DNA of 64,000 nucleotides from NCBI RefSeq assembly GCF_009909615.1, contig NZ_WWNE01000005.1, positions 434,334 through 498,333 of the forward strand, read 5' to 3'. The notes below the pieces were generated by a model that was not told where the DNA came from, made no database searches, and was given only the letters and a program-made list of their open reading frames with translations. Source of the DNA: Acidiluteibacter ferrifornacis (GTDB taxonomy: Bacteria; Bacteroidota; Bacteroidia; Flavobacteriales_E; Vicingaceae). Positions 7,098 to 54,828 of the stretch are shown here, in pieces (positions within the stretch are counted from its first letter, which is position 1; each line of letters opens with the position of its first letter). A program made the translations under genes and the position numbers.

Positions 7098-7123
7098 CTT
7101 CGACTCCGCTCAGTCTGACAAAA
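7098..7123. repeat. REP-like repeat copy inside the metal operon
   Basis: A 26-base sequence with core CGACTCCGCTCAG lies between the permease-channel gene and the adaptor gene. It matches, with one difference, the copies at 53565-53590 and 54529-54554 far away in the window. It is a dispersed repeat of the REP type, in the same orientation as those two. Confidence 0.75.
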
Positions 7124-7163: not shown

Positions 7164-10100
7164 TCATTGAACATTGATAAAATATTCTAATTTAAATTGG
7201 CTGTTTAGGTATTCCTGATAAGTCTGCCATCCATCTCGTTCAATTTCAATTGCATCTTTTACCAATTGCAAGAAGCTGATGTAATCTATCGCACCTTCAC
7301 GGTAAGCAATTGAAGCTCCATTTCGTTGTTCTTTTGCTAATTCTAAGGCTTCTTTTTCGTAATAATTCCAAGCTTCTTTCCATTTCAAATAATTCTCTTG
7401 GGCTTGTGCATATTCGCTTTTCAGCTGAATAGTAGCTTGTGATTTCCGCTCTTCTGCAATTTTGCTGTTAATTTTAGCAGATTGAACTTTTCCTTTATCT
7501 GTATTGAAAAACAAGGGAATGTTTACGCCTAATTGATACTGATAAAAGCCACTTTCTCCTGAAACTTCCTGCACGCCATATTGAAGGTTTAATTGTGGAA
7601 GGTAATTAGACTGAGCAGCTTTGATGCTTTGCTCTGCAACTTTTACTTTCTGATTTTCCATTAAAAGAACCGGATGGTTTTCTATGGAAGGGTTTAGCGA
7701 AATCGTAAGCGGAGCTTTTTCAATTGTTGGTTCAACAGTATAAAGTGTATCGCCTAAAAACCATCGATTAAATTGTTGAATTGCAATTTGATAATCTCGA
7801 AATGCCTGATTCTTCTCATTGCTTATCTTCTTTGCTTGATTGGAAGCAGATAAGTAGGCCAAATGAGAAGTTGCCTCGGTTTTATATCTAATTTTGGCTG
7901 CACGTTCAAATTCTACAAAGGTAGAATCCAACTCTTCATACAAGTTATATAACTGCATTTTAGAATATAAGCTCCCATAATCCTGTTTTACTTGAATGCT
8001 TAATTCCAAGTTAGAAAGCTCCAAATTACTTTTAGCCAAAAGCACCTTTTCCTTTTGCAGTTTGCTTTTCGCAGGAATCGAGAAAACATCCATGTTTTGC
8101 TGCTGAATTCCAACAACATTCTTAACTCCTTCGTTAATGCCGTTTAATTCTTCGCCACCTGTAAAGACAGAAGTTTTACCAAAATCCCAAGTCGTTTTTT
8201 TCAGTGCTTCTTGATTTTCGACTTCCAATTGCATGGCTTTTAAAGTAGGGTAGTTTTTCATCACTTTATTTACTGCCACTTCCATGGAAATTGGAAGCAG
8301 AGTTTGACTTTCCTGAGCTTGTAGCTTATTAGATTGAGCAAAACAAAAGACAAACAACAAACTTGCAATAATCGCTGTTGGCTTAGTTGCTATAGAAGAA
8401 TTGTTTCTGTTTTCTACCCAACGATAAAGCAATGGTAAAATAAATAATGTCAGCAAAGTAGCGGAAATCATACCTCCAATAACTACTGTCGCCAAAGGCT
8501 GCTGAACTTCAGCTCCTGCCGAAGTAGAAATAGCCATAGGAAGAAAGCCTAAAATATCTGTTAGAGCCGTTAACATAATGGGGCGAATTCTTCTTTTAGC
8601 ACCAATTCTAATTCGTTCATTCAAATTGGTTTCTCCTTCTTCTTTTAGTTCATTCCAACCGCTAATTAAAACCAAGCCATTCAAAACCGCTACTCCAAAC
8701 AACACAATAAATCCAACACCTGCCGATATACTAAAAGGCATATCTCTCAGCCACAGCGAAATAATGCCACCAATGGCAGCCAACGGAATAGCCATGTAAA
8801 TCATAATAGTTTGTTTAATTGATTTTAATGCAAAAAAGATGAGTAAGAAAATCAATCCCAATGCAATGGGAACAACAATTTTTAACCGATTGGTAGCACG
8901 TTCCAAATTTTCAAAAGCACCTCCGTATCGAATGTAATATCCGGCAGGTAAATCCAATTCGGCATCCAACTTTTCTTGAATTTCAGTAACCAAAGATTTT
9001 ACATCTCTACCTCTTACATTAATCCCAACATAAGTTCTTCGGTTGGTATTATCTCTACTAATTTGCATTGGTCCGGGTTCGTAACTAACCTTAGCCACTT
9101 CATTCAACGGAATTTGAGAGCCATTTGGTAAATTAACGTACAAGTTTTTCAAATCGTCAATCCCTTGTCGGTGGCTATCGTCTAAACGAACTACCAAGTC
9201 GAAACGCCTTTCTCCTTCAAAAATAACCCCTGCTATTCCGCCTGCAAATGCCGATTGCACCGTAGTATTCAGTTCAGAAATCGTTAAACCATATTGAGCT
9301 AATTTTTGGCGGTTGTAGTTTACTGTCATTTGAGGTAAGCCGCTTGTTGCTTCTACTTTCATATCGGCGACTCCTTGAATGGGAGCAATTAATTTCCCCA
9401 TTTCTTCTGCTTTTTCTGCCAACACTTCTAAATCTTCACCAAAAAGTTTCACTGCAATATCTTCTCGAACTCCGGTTAACAGTTCATTAAATCGCATTTC
9501 AATGGGTTGTGTAAATTCATAATTTACTCCCGGTACTTGCTCTATTTTTTCTTTGATTTTATCAATCAAATCTTCTTTGCTTTCCGCTGAAATCCACTCA
9601 TCGGTTGGTTTTAGAATAATAAAACAATCTGCAATATCCATCGGCATAGGGTCAGTCGGTACATCTGCAACACCAATTCTGCTAATCACATGAACAGCTT
9701 CGGGGAAGTTTTCTTTGATTATTTTTTCAATTTTGGTCGTGGTTTCAATTGTTTCAGAAAGGGAGCTCCCGGGTTTTAATATGGCATGAAATGCAAGGTC
9801 GCCCTCATCTAACTGCGGAATAAATTCGCCACCTAATCGGGAGAAAATGAATACAGAAATTCCTAATAACACAACTGCAAGTCCAATGATCCATTTTGCT
9901 TTTCCTAATGCTTTACCTAAACTTCTTTCGTAAATGTTCTCAACTTTAACAACGAATTTATCACCCCAAGAAAGTTTGTTGTTTTTAGGAACTCTTATAA
10001 ACCAAGCTGACATCATTGGAACGTAAGTCAAACAAAGAATCATTACTCCAATCATGGCAAACATAAAAGTCAATGCCATAGGTTGAAACATTTTGCCTTC

Positions 10101-11507
10101 AACACCTTCTAACGCTAAGATTGGAATGAAAACAATTAGAATAATCAACTGACCGAAAAAGGCTGAGTTCATCATTTTTGATGCTGAACTTTTTGCCACT
10201 CCATTTCGAACTCCTTCGGTTATTTCCTTTTTCTTTAGCACTTTATCATGAAGAAAAAAGACCGTACTTTCTACAATAATTACTGCTCCATCAATGATAA
10301 TTCCGAAGTCAATCGCTCCTAAACTCATCAGGTTTGCCCATACATCGAAAACATTCATTAAAATAAAAGCAAACAGTAATGACAATGGAATTGTTGAAGC
10401 TACTATTAAACCGCCTCGCCAATTTCCTAACAAGAAAACCAACACAAAAATGACAATCAATGCCCCTTCAATCAAGTTTGTACTGACTGTTCCTGTGGTT
10501 TTAGCAATCAAAGAACTCCTATCTAAAAAAGGCTCAATGCTTACGCCTTCGGGCAACGATTTTTGAATGTCTTCAACTCTTAACTTAACTGCATCAACTA
10601 CTTCGTCAGAATTTGCACCTTTCAGCATCAGAATCATTCCCCCAACAGCTTCGCCTTTTCCGTCTTTGGTCAAAGCTCCATATCGAATGGCTTGACCAAA
10701 TCTAACAGTGGCAACATCTTTTACAGTAATAGGTAAACCATTTGCAGTTGTTACAACTATGTTTTCAAGGTCTTCAACACTTCTTGCCAAACCTTCGCCC
10801 CGTATAAAATTGGCTTGGTGGTTCTTTTCAATATAAGCTCCACCTGTATTTTGATTATTTAAATTCAGGGCTTCCATCAAATCAGCAATGGTTATTCCTA
10901 TCGCTTTCAATTCTTCGGGATTTACAGCAACTTCATATTGTTTTACACTTCCTCCGAAAGCATTTACTTCAACCACTCCTTTGACCATTGCCATTTGCCG
11001 GCGAATGATCCAATCTTGTATTGTTCTTAGTTCAGTAGCGGAGTATTTACCTTCAAATTCAGGAGCAACTTCTAAAGTGTATTGATAAATTTCTCCTAAG
11101 CCTGTACTTATTGGCCCCATCATTGGCTCTCCAAAGCCTTGTGGAATTTTTTCTTTTACCTCAGTTAGCTTTTCAGCTACCAATTGTCGAGGAAGATAAT
11201 TACCAAAATCATCTTCAAAAACAATGGTTACAACGGATAGTCCAAATCGGGAAACGGAGCGAATTTCAGTAACTCCGGGTAAGTTTGCCATGGCAACTTC
11301 CACTGGATAAGTTACAAACTGCTCAATATCTTCTGTTCCTAAGTTAGGAGCTTGTGTAATTACTTGAACCTGATTATTAGTGATGTCAGGAACGGCATCA
11401 ATGGGTACTTTGGTAATGCTCCATAATCCTGTACCAATTAAGGCAAGAGTTAATAAAGCAACCATAAGCTTGTTCTTAATTGACCAAGCTATGATATTAT
11501 CTATCAT
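7164..11507 (-). CDS. cusA: CusA/CzcA heavy-metal RND permease fused to a TolC-like outer-membrane channel
   Basis: A 1,447-residue protein. Residues 1 to about 1035 are a complete heavy-metal RND permease: start MIDNIIAWSIKNK, TM4 proton-relay motif DFGIIIDGAVIIVES, paired porter domains and 12 membrane segments. After a short linker, a hydrophobic stretch (SLLFVFCFAQSNKLQAQ) resembles a signal peptide with an AQA-type cleavage point near residue 1064. The remaining roughly 380 residues are an outer-membrane efflux protein with two coiled-coil repeats. Such fusions occur in Bacteroidota annotations. The product would need either a thirteenth membrane span or processing so the channel can reach the outer membrane. 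The substrate is probably Cu/Ag or Zn/Co/Cd. Confidence 0.93.
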   Translation of the reverse strand: MIDNIIAWSIKNKLMVALLTLALIGTGLWSITKVPIDAVPDITNNQVQVITQAPNLGTEDIEQFVTYPVEVAMANLPGVTEIRSVSRFGLSVVTIVFEDDFGNYLPRQLVAEKLTEVKEKIPQGFGEPMMGPISTGLGEIYQYTLEVAPEFEGKYSATELRTIQDWIIRRQMAMVKGVVEVNAFGGSVKQYEVAVNPEELKAIGITIADLMEALNLNNQNTGGAYIEKNHQANFIRGEGLARSVEDLENIVVTTANGLPITVKDVATVRFGQAIRYGALTKDGKGEAVGGMILMLKGANSDEVVDAVKLRVEDIQKSLPEGVSIEPFLDRSSLIAKTTGTVSTNLIEGALIVIFVLVFLLGNWRGGLIVASTIPLSLLFAFILMNVFDVWANLMSLGAIDFGIIIDGAVIIVESTVFFLHDKVLKKKEITEGVRNGVAKSSASKMMNSAFFGQLIILIVFIPILALEGVEGKMFQPMALTFMFAMIGVMILCLTYVPMMSAWFIRVPKNNKLSWGDKFVVKVENIYERSLGKALGKAKWIIGLAVVLLGISVFIFSRLGGEFIPQLDEGDLAFHAILKPGSSLSETIETTTKIEKIIKENFPEAVHVISRIGVADVPTDPMPMDIADCFIILKPTDEWISAESKEDLIDKIKEKIEQVPGVNYEFTQPIEMRFNELLTGVREDIAVKLFGEDLEVLAEKAEEMGKLIAPIQGVADMKVEATSGLPQMTVNYNRQKLAQYGLTISELNTTVQSAFAGGIAGVIFEGERRFDLVVRLDDSHRQGIDDLKNLYVNLPNGSQIPLNEVAKVSYEPGPMQISRDNTNRRTYVGINVRGRDVKSLVTEIQEKLDAELDLPAGYYIRYGGAFENLERATNRLKIVVPIALGLIFLLIFFALKSIKQTIMIYMAIPLAAIGGIISLWLRDMPFSISAGVGFIVLFGVAVLNGLVLISGWNELKEEGETNLNERIRIGAKRRIRPIMLTALTDILGFLPMAISTSAGAEVQQPLATVVIGGMISATLLTLFILPLLYRWVENRNNSSIATKPTAIIASLLFVFCFAQSNKLQAQESQTLLPISMEVAVNKVMKNYPTLKAMQLEVENQEALKKTTWDFGKTSVFTGGEELNGINEGVKNVVGIQQQNMDVFSIPAKSKLQKEKVLLAKSNLELSNLELSIQVKQDYGSLYSKMQLYNLYEELDSTFVEFERAAKIRYKTEATSHLAYLSASNQAKKISNEKNQAFRDYQIAIQQFNRWFLGDTLYTVEPTIEKAPLTISLNPSIENHPVLLMENQKVKVAEQSIKAAQSNYLPQLNLQYGVQEVSGESGFYQYQLGVNIPLFFNTDKGKVQSAKINSKIAEERKSQATIQLKSEYAQAQENYLKWKEAWNYYEKEALELAKEQRNGASIAYREGAIDYISFLQLVKDAIEIERDGWQTYQEYLNSQFKLEYFINVQ

Positions 11508-51687: not shown

Positions 51688-53361
51688 ATGATTGAGACTA
51701 TAAAAGAAACTGACAAAAATAGATTGTGGTGGCTTAATGAAGAAAGTCAGCAAATATTAAATAGAGGTTATTTACTAAAAGGAGAAACCGTAAAAACAGC
51801 GATTGAGCGTATTGCAAACGCTGCGGCAAAACGGTTATACAAGCCTGAATTGGCTGAAGCCTTCATTGAAATGATTGAAAAGGGATGGATGAGTTTGAGC
51901 TCTCCAATATGGGCAAATATGGGAACCGAAAGAGGATTGCCAATTTCTTGTTTCAATGTGCATGTGCCTGATAACATTGAAAGTATCACACACAAATTAG
52001 GCGAAGTGATCATGCAGACCAAAATTGGCGGAGGAACCTCTGGCTACTTTGGCGAATTGAGAGAACGTGGAAGCGCTGTAACGGATAATGGAAAAAGTAG
52101 TGGTGCAGTTAGCTTTATGAAACTGTTTGATGTAGCGATGGATACCATATCTCAAGGTGGTGTTCGAAGAGGCGCATTTGCTGCATACTTAGACATCGAT
52201 CATTCCGACATTTTAGAGTTTTTAGAAATCAAAAACATTGGAAATCCAATTCAAAACTTGTTCTATGCCGTTTGTGTGCCAGATTATTGGATGCAAGACA
52301 TGATTGACGGTGACGCAGATAAACGAAAGATATGGGCCAAAGTATTGGAAAGCAGACAGCAGAAAGGTCTGCCTTACATTTTTTTCTCGGACAATGTAAA
52401 TCGCAATAAGCCGGAAGTTTACAAAGATCAAAACAGAGTAATTCACGCAAGTAATTTATGTTCTGAAATTGCCCTTCCATCTACTGCCGACGAATCGTTT
52501 ATTTGCTGTCTATCTTCAATGAATCTAGAACTTTATGACGAGTGGAAAGATACAGAAGCTGTGAAATTGGCCATTTACTTTTTGGATGCTGTATTGCAAG
52601 AATTTATTGTTAAAACAGAAGACAATTACTATTTAGCGAGTGCCAATCGTTTTGCAAAAAGACACCGTGCTTTAGGACTTGGCGTAATGGGATGGCATTC
52701 TTACCTGCAGAAAAACAGCATTCCTTTTGAAGGCATGGAAGCTAAAAGCTTAACCAATTCTATTTTTAAAGACATTCAAGCAAAAGCCGAAAAAGCAAGC
52801 ACCCAGTTGGCAGACATCTACGGTGAACCAGAGGTTTTAAAGGACTATGGCAGACGAAACACTACATTAATGGCCATTGCCCCTACTACGTCGTCATCGG
52901 CTATTCTAGGGCAAGCATCACCAGGAATTGAGCCGTTCAGCAGCAACTACTACAAGGCTGGATTAGCGAAAGGAAATTTCATGCGCAAGAACAAATACCT
53001 GAAACGTTTACTTGCAGAAAAAGACTTGGACAACGAAGACACTTGGAGAAGTATTATGCTTAACCACGGAAGTGTACAACACATAGATGGTTTGACAATC
53101 GAAGAAAAAGCAGTATTCAAAACATTCAAAGAAATCAGTCAATTGGAGATCATTCAACAAGCCTCCATTCGACAAAAATACATCGATCAAGCACAAAGTC
53201 TAAACTTGAACATTCCATCAAACTTGCCAATTAAGGAAGTAAATCAACTTATGATAGAAGCTTGGAAATTGGGCGTTAAAACATTGTATTACCAACGCAG
53301 TCAAAGCGTTTCAAAAGAATTTATCTCCAATTTGGTTTCATGCTCAAGTTGCGAAGCCTAA
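51688..53361 (+). CDS. nrdA: Ribonucleotide reductase class I alpha subunit
   Basis: A 557-residue catalytic subunit starting 6 bases after nrdB. Active-site pieces: PISCFNV (cysteine partner), NLCSEI (thiyl-radical Cys), CLSSMNLE, the TLYYQRS tyrosine dyad for radical transfer, and C-terminal CSSCEA for thioredoxin reduction. It has no N-terminal ATP-cone; the first residues go straight into LLKGETVKTAIERIA. With NrdB also lacking a cone, overall dATP inhibition would be absent. Confidence 0.95.
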   Translation: MIETIKETDKNRLWWLNEESQQILNRGYLLKGETVKTAIERIANAAAKRLYKPELAEAFIEMIEKGWMSLSSPIWANMGTERGLPISCFNVHVPDNIESITHKLGEVIMQTKIGGGTSGYFGELRERGSAVTDNGKSSGAVSFMKLFDVAMDTISQGGVRRGAFAAYLDIDHSDILEFLEIKNIGNPIQNLFYAVCVPDYWMQDMIDGDADKRKIWAKVLESRQQKGLPYIFFSDNVNRNKPEVYKDQNRVIHASNLCSEIALPSTADESFICCLSSMNLELYDEWKDTEAVKLAIYFLDAVLQEFIVKTEDNYYLASANRFAKRHRALGLGVMGWHSYLQKNSIPFEGMEAKSLTNSIFKDIQAKAEKASTQLADIYGEPEVLKDYGRRNTTLMAIAPTTSSSAILGQASPGIEPFSSNYYKAGLAKGNFMRKNKYLKRLLAEKDLDNEDTWRSIMLNHGSVQHIDGLTIEEKAVFKTFKEISQLEIIQQASIRQKYIDQAQSLNLNIPSNLPIKEVNQLMIEAWKLGVKTLYYQRSQSVSKEFISNLVSCSSCEA

Positions 53362-53655
53362 AGTAATTAGTTAAAACTAAATCTTAATAATAGTGCTCTA
53401 GAAACTAAACCTACTCTTTAATAAATCCATCTACCCACTGGGTTTACTTCTCTAGTTTGCTTTGATTATTTTCTTGCGATAACCTTCTCTTCGACTTTCG
53501 TCGAAGGAAGGGGGTGAAAATGGAAAGGATTAATATAATGTACATCATACTACTTTTTTGCCCGCTTCGACTCCGCTCAGCCTGACAAAAAATAGAGAAG
53601 TCTATATCTGTCATCCAGAATATCGGTAAAAAAATCGTCGAATAGAACCTCTAAT
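53362..53655. other. Gene-free 3' flank of nrdA with REP-like repeats
   Basis: It contains a small palindrome CTTCGAC/GTCGAAG near 53490-53510 and one 26-base REP-like repeat (53565-53590, core CGACTCCGCTCAG). No gene is seen. Confidence 0.6.
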
Positions 53656-53818
53656 CGTTTTGTTACACTGAGCATAGAACATTGTATACTTTATACCAAT
53701 GGTTTTATCACCCAGAGAAGAGAAGTTTCTATTACTCTCAAAAGGGTTTTGTCACATTAAGCAGAGAAGCTTCTATAACACTCCAATGGTTTTGTCACCC
53801 TGAGCGGAGTCGAAGGGT
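53656..53818 (+). repeat. Degenerate ~43-bp tandem repeats, left block
   Basis: Four units start near 53656, 53700, 53744 and 53788, each beginning GGTTTTGTCAC-like and continuing with a GAGCGGAGAAG-like part and TTCTATTACACTC. The part 53745-53818 is an exact 74-base copy of 54419-54492. Confidence 0.75.
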
Positions 53819-53867
53819 TTAACAAAAAAGGGTTAACTCTTTTATTACCTATTCGAAAGAAACAATT

Positions 53868-54194
53868 TTATTCATTCCCATGATTCAAATGGCTCGATTC
53901 ATTCCTACAAATCGAAAGCTCCTTCAAATCCTCCCAGTTATCATTGATGATTGCTTCCTTCTTTTTTCGACTCCAACCTTTCACTCTTTTCTCGAAAGCT
54001 ATGGCTTTATCAATGTATTTAAATTCATTCATAAAAACCAACTCTACTGGCCGTCTTGCATATGTATAAGATGTCGGATCTATTCCCATATTGTGCTGCT
54101 TGAATCGCAATTCAATATCATTTGTTACACCTGTATAATATGAACCGTCAGCGCACTTTAAGATATATACATAAAATCGAAAATCTTTGGACAT
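53868..54194 (-). CDS. Single-domain GIY-YIG nuclease (UPF0213-like)
   Basis: A 108-residue protein. It has YVYILKCADGSYYTGVTND (the GIY-YIG pattern), the helix ELRFKQHNMG with catalytic-type Arg, and the C-terminal Glu motif AIAFEKRVKGWSRKKKEAII. This is a complete minimal GIY-YIG domain with no DNA-binding extra domain. It lies between two blocks of REP-like tandem repeats and inside an exact 74-bp direct repeat pair. Role unknown; mobility or repair are possible. Confidence 0.9.
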   Translation of the reverse strand: MSKDFRFYVYILKCADGSYYTGVTNDIELRFKQHNMGIDPTSYTYARRPVELVFMNEFKYIDKAIAFEKRVKGWSRKKKEAIINDNWEDLKELSICRNESSHLNHGNE

Positions 54195-54418
54195 AGCTTA
54201 AAATTAAGGATTTATTATTATTTTCTTGTCTGATTTGGCTATTGTTACAATTATTTGTCTATCCTTCGACTATCGCTCAGGACGACAAATAGAAATACTT
54301 TACATCAAAAAAACTAACCTTCTCGAGGTTGAAAAAAAAAAACTAATATTCATTCAATCCCATAAAACTACCAATGGTTTTGTCACAATTAGCGGAGAAG
54401 TTTTTATTACACTCTAAT

Positions 54419-54492
54419 GGTTTTGTCACATTAAGCAGAGAAGCTTCTATAACACTCCAATGGTTTTGTCACCCTGAGCGGAGTCGAAGGGT
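54419..54492 (+). repeat. Exact 74-bp direct repeat, second copy
   Basis: Identical base for base to 53745-53818. The two copies flank the GIY-YIG gene 601 bases apart. Identity despite the decay around them points to recent duplication or gene conversion. Confidence 0.9.
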
Positions 54493-54554
54493 ATTCTAAA
54501 TATTAAAAAAAGGCTTATTTTGTATGAGCTTCGACTCCGCTCAGCCTGACAAAA
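54464..54554. repeat. REPIN-like inverted pair of 26-bp repeats
   Basis: The forward arm 54464-54489 and the reverse arm 54529-54554 are complementary at 24 of 26 positions and are separated by 39 bases, so they can form a long hairpin. This is the two-REP arrangement of REPIN elements. Confidence 0.8.
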
Positions 54555-54828
54555 TATAATTAAGAATTTTAAGGCTAATTGTCATTCAAAACGTCGATGC
54601 TTCTAACACACTCAAATTGTTCTATCCCATAAAACTACCATTGTTTTTTGTCACACTGTGCACAGAAGTTTCTATTACACTCTAAAGGTTTTGTCACATT
54701 GAGTATTTCGGCTATCGCTCAATACAGGCTTTAGTCGAAAGATAAGTCAAAACATAGCCAACAAAACCACCCCATCAAACACTACAGTAAACCATTTTTT
54801 TTTACGTTTGTGATTCAAAACTTCATTA

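Follow-up and report, generated by a model that had tools for sequence, protein, structure and literature searches.

A small GIY-YIG nuclease gene amid dispersed hairpin elements: a probable nuclease-repeat pair

The 64-kb stretch of DNA analysed in this work (the window) contains a small GIY-YIG nuclease gene surrounded by copies of a short dispersed element. The locus is probably a nuclease-repeat pair, that is, a small GIY-YIG enzyme with its own dispersed target, and the enzyme and the repeat very probably belong together. The gene and the element are associated across genomes, the C-terminal tail of the nuclease matches the loop of the element, the stem of the element covaries, and gene and elements form a cassette of defined anatomy. 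From these observations we infer that the enzyme would recognise a dispersed TTGTCA head followed by a short hairpin with the loop GAGCGNAGTCGA, and that it most likely nicks or cuts the element in single-stranded DNA. The gene would lie within a ~0.4-kb cassette that has copies of the enzyme's own target, in inverted orientation, at both ends. Cuts at dispersed copies when the DNA is single-stranded (during replication or uptake) could lead to recombination, which would keep the copies alike and let the cassette or the element spread; the tail C-x-N-x-[ST] may contribute to the choice of loop. Bacterial genomes commonly contain short dispersed palindromes, many of which lack a known partner. 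In this work, two types of repeat are linked with two subgroups of the nuclease across a class through their position, their loop sequence and, loosely, their copy number. This provides candidate enzyme-target pairs, a testable guess as to where specificity resides, and an opening to find out if these pairs propagate selfishly or benefit the host, e.g., in DNA uptake.

The nuclease gene and its repeats in the window

The gene has repeats on either side, as the first-pass annotation had described (Table 1). Its neighbours are the ribonucleotide reductase large-subunit gene (51688-53361) and, on the other side, an ORF without a Pfam match. The protein matches Pfam GIY-YIG (PF01541, E 2e-18), the only Pfam domain found in its 108 aa, and residues Y10, G22, R30, H34, and E68 are invariant in an alignment of relatives (A1). 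A structure predicted from a 51-row alignment has a mean pLDDT of 87, with 65 and 46 for the tail blocks; the tail is thus modelled with low confidence, and its role is read from covariation alone. The closest solved structures in both sequence and fold are two UPF0213 entries for which no function is named: BH0048 (1zg2; sequence E 1.2e-21 with profile A3, fold E 7.5e-6) and EF2693 (1ywl; E 7e-17 and 4.4e-4, respectively), with SLX1 weaker by fold. By its domain, conserved motifs and fold matches the protein is a member of the GIY-YIG superfamily. It had no NCBIfam match at E <= 1. Identity as a defence system was dropped after four proteins of the nuclease family gave no PADLOC match at E <= 0.01. 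A single-protein search of the named genome contigs returned no relative, but the alignment query did find relatives.

The short repeat CTGAGCGGAGTCGAAG occurs in five exact copies in the window, four of them at the locus (53565 (-), 53800 (+), 54474 (+), and 54529 (-)) and the fifth at 7098, so that the order at the locus is -, +, gene, +, -. When up to 3 mismatches are allowed, the window has six matches versus 0.13 expected by shuffles (shuffle maximum 1). The direct repeats of exactly 74 bp reported by the first-pass annotation were found again, one on each side of the gene; they lie in a 77-nt pair (53742-53818 and 54416-54492) with 99% identity, and each is made up of one degenerate unit and one full element. 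TRF detected a period of 43 with 2.6 copies at 54362-54472, and more copies of the 43-bp unit are present at 53694, 53738, and 54637. The REPIN-like hairpin noted earlier corresponds to an inverted pair, 54464-54502 and 54516-54554, with 82% complementarity. Tandem units and short repeat had been taken as separate things, which the alignment contradicts: among 11 aligned rows, five of six tandem units match the element minus its core TCG and retain the head (T)TTTGTCAC or a near-identical one. A single element underlies both the dispersed copies and most of the 43-bp tandem units, which are variant forms of it. The whole genome contains 12 element copies at up to 2 mismatches, only four of which are at the nuclease locus; the other eight are located between other genes, one of them (L018) inside a small cluster of related copies.

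Table 1. Features of the nuclease locus, in window positions
Feature	Position	Strand	Basis
Outer element, GNA loop (GAGCGGAGTCGA), 3' side of gene	53564..53592	-	
Two degenerate ~43-bp units from the same element; head retained, core TCG missing	53699..53786	+	
Exact 74-bp copy 1 (degenerate unit + full element)	53745..53818	+	
Inner element, GNA loop, head TTTTGTCA, 3' side of gene; '-' in the gene's frame	53790..53818	+	
GIY-YIG nuclease gene, 108 aa, C-terminal tail C-R-N-E-S	53868..54194	-	ORF, Pfam, alignment
Fifth element, ATA loop (GAGCGATAGTCGA), immediately 5' of gene; '+' in the gene's frame; outer arms ATTTGTC/GACAAAT	54253..54290	-	
Two degenerate 43-bp units; head retained, core TCG missing	54374..54459	+	
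Exact 74-bp copy 2	54419..54492	+	
Element, GNA loop, 5' side of gene	54464..54492	+	
Outer element, GNA loop, 5' side of gene; inverted pair with 54464-54492	54528..54556	-	
Additional degenerate units; the last aligns poorly	54642..54720	+	

Element structure and its match to the nuclease

The element consists of a 5' head TTGTCA, a covarying 4-bp stem, and the loop GAGCGNAGTCGA (GNA type); a second loop type (YT) reads GAGCYTGTCGA. We compared 230 distinct GNA and 103 distinct YT elements from 84 sources; they were searched by core, so the constancy of the core is no evidence. Both types share the 5' head T-G-T-C-A, each base of which is found in 83-91% of GNA elements. The outer two of the four stem pairs vary freely in both sets yet remain complementary. 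In the GNA set, pair 3 is Watson-Crick in 89% of elements versus 31% shuffled and pair 4 in 79% versus 34% (n=230); the YT stem pairs gave 90% versus 27% and 86% versus 33% (n=103). Tandem G-A pairs are conceivable at the GA...GA border of the core. No conservation was seen 3' of the hairpin. Folding energies predicted for four window copies were no better than shuffled, so the case for hairpin pairing is made by the covariation.

In the host's family, 22 of 46 genomes match the nuclease at E <= 1e-10, with up to five matches per genome. Among 30 loci read, all eight genes with an intact tail C-x-N-x-[ST] have an element within 300 bp, and the GNA-element core is absent within 300 bp of the tail-less genes; one locus (L030) has a decayed tail and related element copies. 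The A2 profile was built from repeat-flanked genes, so the named and class-wide sets weigh more. For the named set the A2 profile was run against genome contigs, which gave at least 536 relatives; the best 80 were kept and none was dropped. These best 80 are mostly from Bacteroidota, with single loci in Ignavibacteriota, Vulcanimicrobiota, Chloroflexota (no element), Thermodesulfobacteriota, and Pseudomonadota. Among the best 80 of at least 536, all 53 genes with the tail C.N.[ST] have predominantly GNA loops within 300 bp, and the 27 genes not so tailed divide into 20 with YT loops (CT/TT), six with neither, and one with GNA (Fisher p 3.6e-17 for tail versus loop in rows with either loop, with kinship ignored and the tail and loop definitions drawn up on the same 80). 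The lone untailed GNA case (L113) has a tail that looks frameshifted, and one of the six with neither loop (L096) has a decayed tail and an ATA loop. CRNAT/CRNAS proteins of the named set go mainly with GCA loops. A 92-column tree with few supported branches yielded one independent tail/loop contrast, which is concordant; as many independent events the match is not proven by the tree. Genomes carrying both types are a better control, and in three of them (Epilithonimonas mollis, L117/L123; G122; G050) each gene matches its own loop.

The class-wide set was taken from 149 evenly drawn genomes (>=90% completeness requested), at least 99 of which have some A3 match at E <= 1e-8. We took 80 of the listed A3 matches, leaving aside that of the window itself: the top 53 (E 5.8e-27 or better) and, as distant GIY-YIG genes, the 27 ranked directly below them. 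The tail and loop patterns differ slightly from those of the named set, and species overlap between the two sets is possible. All 20 tailed genes have GNA elements within 300 bp, in agreement with the expectation in the first-pass annotation that gene and repeats lie close together. Of 33 tail-less genes, 13 have YT, two have GNA (in one case 298 bp away, the other being a broken match), and 18 have neither; GNA was found at one of the 27 distant genes, in a broken frame. Around the 53 nuclease-family genes, 122 elements lie within 300 bp versus 12 in 278 kb beyond 1 kb.

We also scored any repeat shared by the two flanks of a gene. At a single score threshold such repeats were present at 32 of 48 family genes and 18 of 26 distant GIY-YIG genes (five family and one distant rows with short flanks omitted), versus 2 of 163 other ORFs of more than 200 aa from these loci (their flanks may include coding sequence). 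Several tail-less genes without GNA or YT, and many distant ones, have other two-flank repeats, e.g., TTGTCATTCTGAGGAACGAAGAATCT or GTCATGGCGGGCTTGACCCGCCA. Distant GIY-YIG genes lack GNA and YT elements, apart from the one broken-frame case, but often own other repeats, and they serve therefore as a control for the loop and not for repeat presence. Other GTCA-headed repeats were seen in the flanks of eight distant genes (L260, L267, L269, L274, L275, L279, L281, and L282), each of which may form its own nuclease-repeat pair.

The head, too, seems to follow the enzyme type. At the 20 tailed class-wide loci, the head TGTCA accompanies 12 of 13 genes of the G-[VIF]-T type and none of seven of the GST type, a match noticed post hoc and counted on the loci in which it was discovered. 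The G-[VIF]-T exception (L210) has the head GGTCA, and several GST loci carry GGTG instead. GNA loops with heads GGTG, GTACAC, or TTTGCTC were seen at the GST-type genes L224, L227, L229, L232, L233, L243, and L254, and also at L041, L053, and L054.

Copy number, cassette anatomy and alternative explanations

TGTCA-headed GNA elements were found in 45 and YT elements in 27 of the 149 genomes; the reversed pattern gave one match per search. With kinship ignored and the window genome counted in, GNA elements were present in 13 of 18 genomes with tailed genes versus 32 of 131 others (mean 19.3 versus 3.7, p 1.6e-6), and YT elements in 10 of 27 genomes with tail-less genes versus 17 of 122 others (p 1.6e-3). 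The swapped loop/gene comparisons among genomes with one type only were not significant (p 0.52 and 0.37). Five of the 18 tailed genomes score 0 with the TGTCA-headed pattern, and all five have GST-type genes with another head. Thus GNA tracks tailed and YT tail-less genes, loosely, when copy number is set against gene presence as the first-pass annotation had suggested. Its proposal that the repeat is commoner with the gene holds on average but fails for G082, a one-contig genome of the class sample that carries 191 GNA elements but lacks a family gene (best E 0.41); repeats can outlive the nuclease or travel without it, and the G082 copies are either orphans or have an unrecognised partner. 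G154, G177, G138, and G160 have 54, 38, 30, and 22 copies, respectively, and only distant GIY-YIG matches.

The nearest upstream element is in the '+' direction in 57 of 68 cases and the nearest downstream element in the '-' direction in 48 of 61, at median positions of -72.5 and +35 bp from the matched part of the gene. In 39 of 80 loci the two point towards one another with the gene between them, and in four they point away; in the remaining loci one side is missing or both elements have the same direction. Comparison of related loci suggests that the cassette is likely mobile. In L154 and L155 homology spans exactly head to head (396 bp) and none was found beyond it in flanks of 1.1 kb and 10 kb; Solitalea L127 and L133 have 368 bp alone in common, the L127 flanks being just 0.6 and 2.7 kb. 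Two Dyadobacter loci (L118 and L126) have one shared intergenic site (around 10001) with shared flanks and the gene in opposite orientations. Among 908 pairs with homology limited to the gene, however, an edge lying no more than 5 bp from the head was seen in only 76 of 729 cases on the left and 36 of 464 on the right (5 and 2 in a displaced control), and both edges are at heads in just 10 of 393.

A selfish homing-like cassette, in which cuts would be repaired from the gene-bearing copy and the gene would spread, is compatible with the nuclease-repeat pair and goes further. The patchy presence in the host's family, the L154/L155 and Solitalea pairs, the opposite orientations in Dyadobacter, and the exact 74-bp copies flanking the window gene are in its favour, but no filled site could be paired with a clean empty counterpart. 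In a search for an empty site via the neighbouring nrdA, one of six relatives has nrdA at E <= 1e-50 and its downstream sequence is unrelated. Moreover, five of six Flavobacterium pairs compared have kilobases of flank in common, so residence can be long. We regard this extension as a possibility that deserves mention but falls short of being probable. The alternative of a homing-type gene put forward in the first-pass annotation may likewise apply.

GIY-YIG genes were also seen next to tRNA genes. In L019 (8900-11400; own genome C20:22961-25175) three successive ones are found near tRNA-Pro: a stretch that resembles part of this tRNA comes after the first two, and a transposase-like ORF (recognised by eye) separates the second from the third. 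These genes are possibly a tRNA-linked GIY-YIG group. In L020 (about 9650-10510; own genome C16) two more copies are in tandem beside tRNA-Asn, one with internal stops.

Alternatively, the hairpins could be terminators or regulatory RNA structures for expression of the small gene and not be recognised by the nuclease. Their short distance from the gene would suit such a role, but the same elements are also found far from any such gene and their loop type goes with a protein feature; we consider this improbable. A shade less probable still is that these are ordinary REPs moved by RAYT (Y1) transposases, among which the GIY-YIG gene landed as a passenger. The anatomy is indeed REP/REPIN-like (5' head, covarying stem, inverted pairs), Y1_Tnp matches are present in 29 of 46 host-family genomes (four in the window's own), and genomes with repeats but without a GIY-YIG family gene exist. 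In the same 46 genomes, however, the motif count is correlated with the GIY-YIG count (rho 0.45, p 0.0016) and not with the Y1 count (PF01797; rho -0.08, p 0.58). Of 27 motif-bearing genomes, 16 have Y1 and 16 have GIY-YIG matches; of 19 motif-free ones, 13 and 6 do, respectively. Loop type goes with the nuclease tail. The passenger explanation was rejected on these counts, as the repeat does not track Y1; the nuclease-repeat pairing proposed in the first-pass annotation is supported well outside the window, and its RAYT-REP analogy holds at the level of anatomy, in the head, the covarying hairpin, the inverted pairs and the orphan copies. Chance or general clutter at an intergenic hot spot, for which the richness of the region in repeats could be cited, is hardly credible and was rejected given GNA elements at 20/20 tailed versus 1/27 distant genes and the flank-repeat counts above.

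With the nuclease-repeat pair as the preferred explanation, we tentatively put forward a recognition code. In it, the loop would be read by the 10-20 residues of the tail, with C-x-N-x-[ST] present for GNA and absent for YT, and the head would be matched by another region of the enzyme (G-[VIF]-T versus GST type). The ~0.4-kb unit of two inverted elements and the gene between them would move by itself as a cassette. This fuller proposal is speculative and somewhat more likely to fail than to hold. If true, the cassette would be among the smallest autonomous mobile elements, and small GIY-YIG nucleases, not RAYTs, would be the partners of many widespread bacterial repeats with a TGTCA head.

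Comparison with known systems

The RAYTs of RAYT-REP/REPIN systems are Y1 HUH transposases, and the repeats have a 5' head outside an imperfect hairpin, inverted pairs, and many orphan copies. The locus resembles them in its 5' head and hairpin, inverted pairs, orphan copies, and a nuclease gene amid the copies, a likeness that does not amount to membership: the fold is GIY-YIG and not Y1, and the copies do not track Y1 genes. Homing endonucleases of the I-TevI type also have a GIY-YIG catalytic domain, and here too the gene lies inside copies of its likely target; unlike in that type, the target is dispersed in many copies and the GIY-YIG domain is the only one found in 108 aa. In PMC9465073, the Moraxella catarrhalis clade genes include a GIY-YIG gene and a RAYT gene as separate entries. 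A literature search with seven repeat strings found no paper, and since most subscription papers are outside such a search, this absence says little.

The closest parallel may be Ssn of Neisseria, which a 2025 report in Nature Communications is said to describe as a 'widespread site-specific single-stranded nuclease family'. These site-specific GIY-YIG nucleases reportedly cut single-stranded DNA at dispersed target repeats (NTS in Neisseria), and homologues are reported to cut their own sequences. Judged against this description, the locus would join the Ssn-type GIY-YIG/repeat systems: it shares with Ssn, as reported, a small stand-alone GIY-YIG protein, a cognate sequence that is dispersed in many copies and also present near the gene, and different cognate sequences for different homologues. 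In contrast to Ssn as reported, the subfamily here is mainly from Bacteroidota, its cassette is bounded by inverted targets, and tail-loop and enzyme type-head covariation is seen. Novelty most likely resides in the anatomy of the cassette and in the matches of tail to loop and of enzyme type to head, and the covariation of a nuclease with both loop and head may be new as well.
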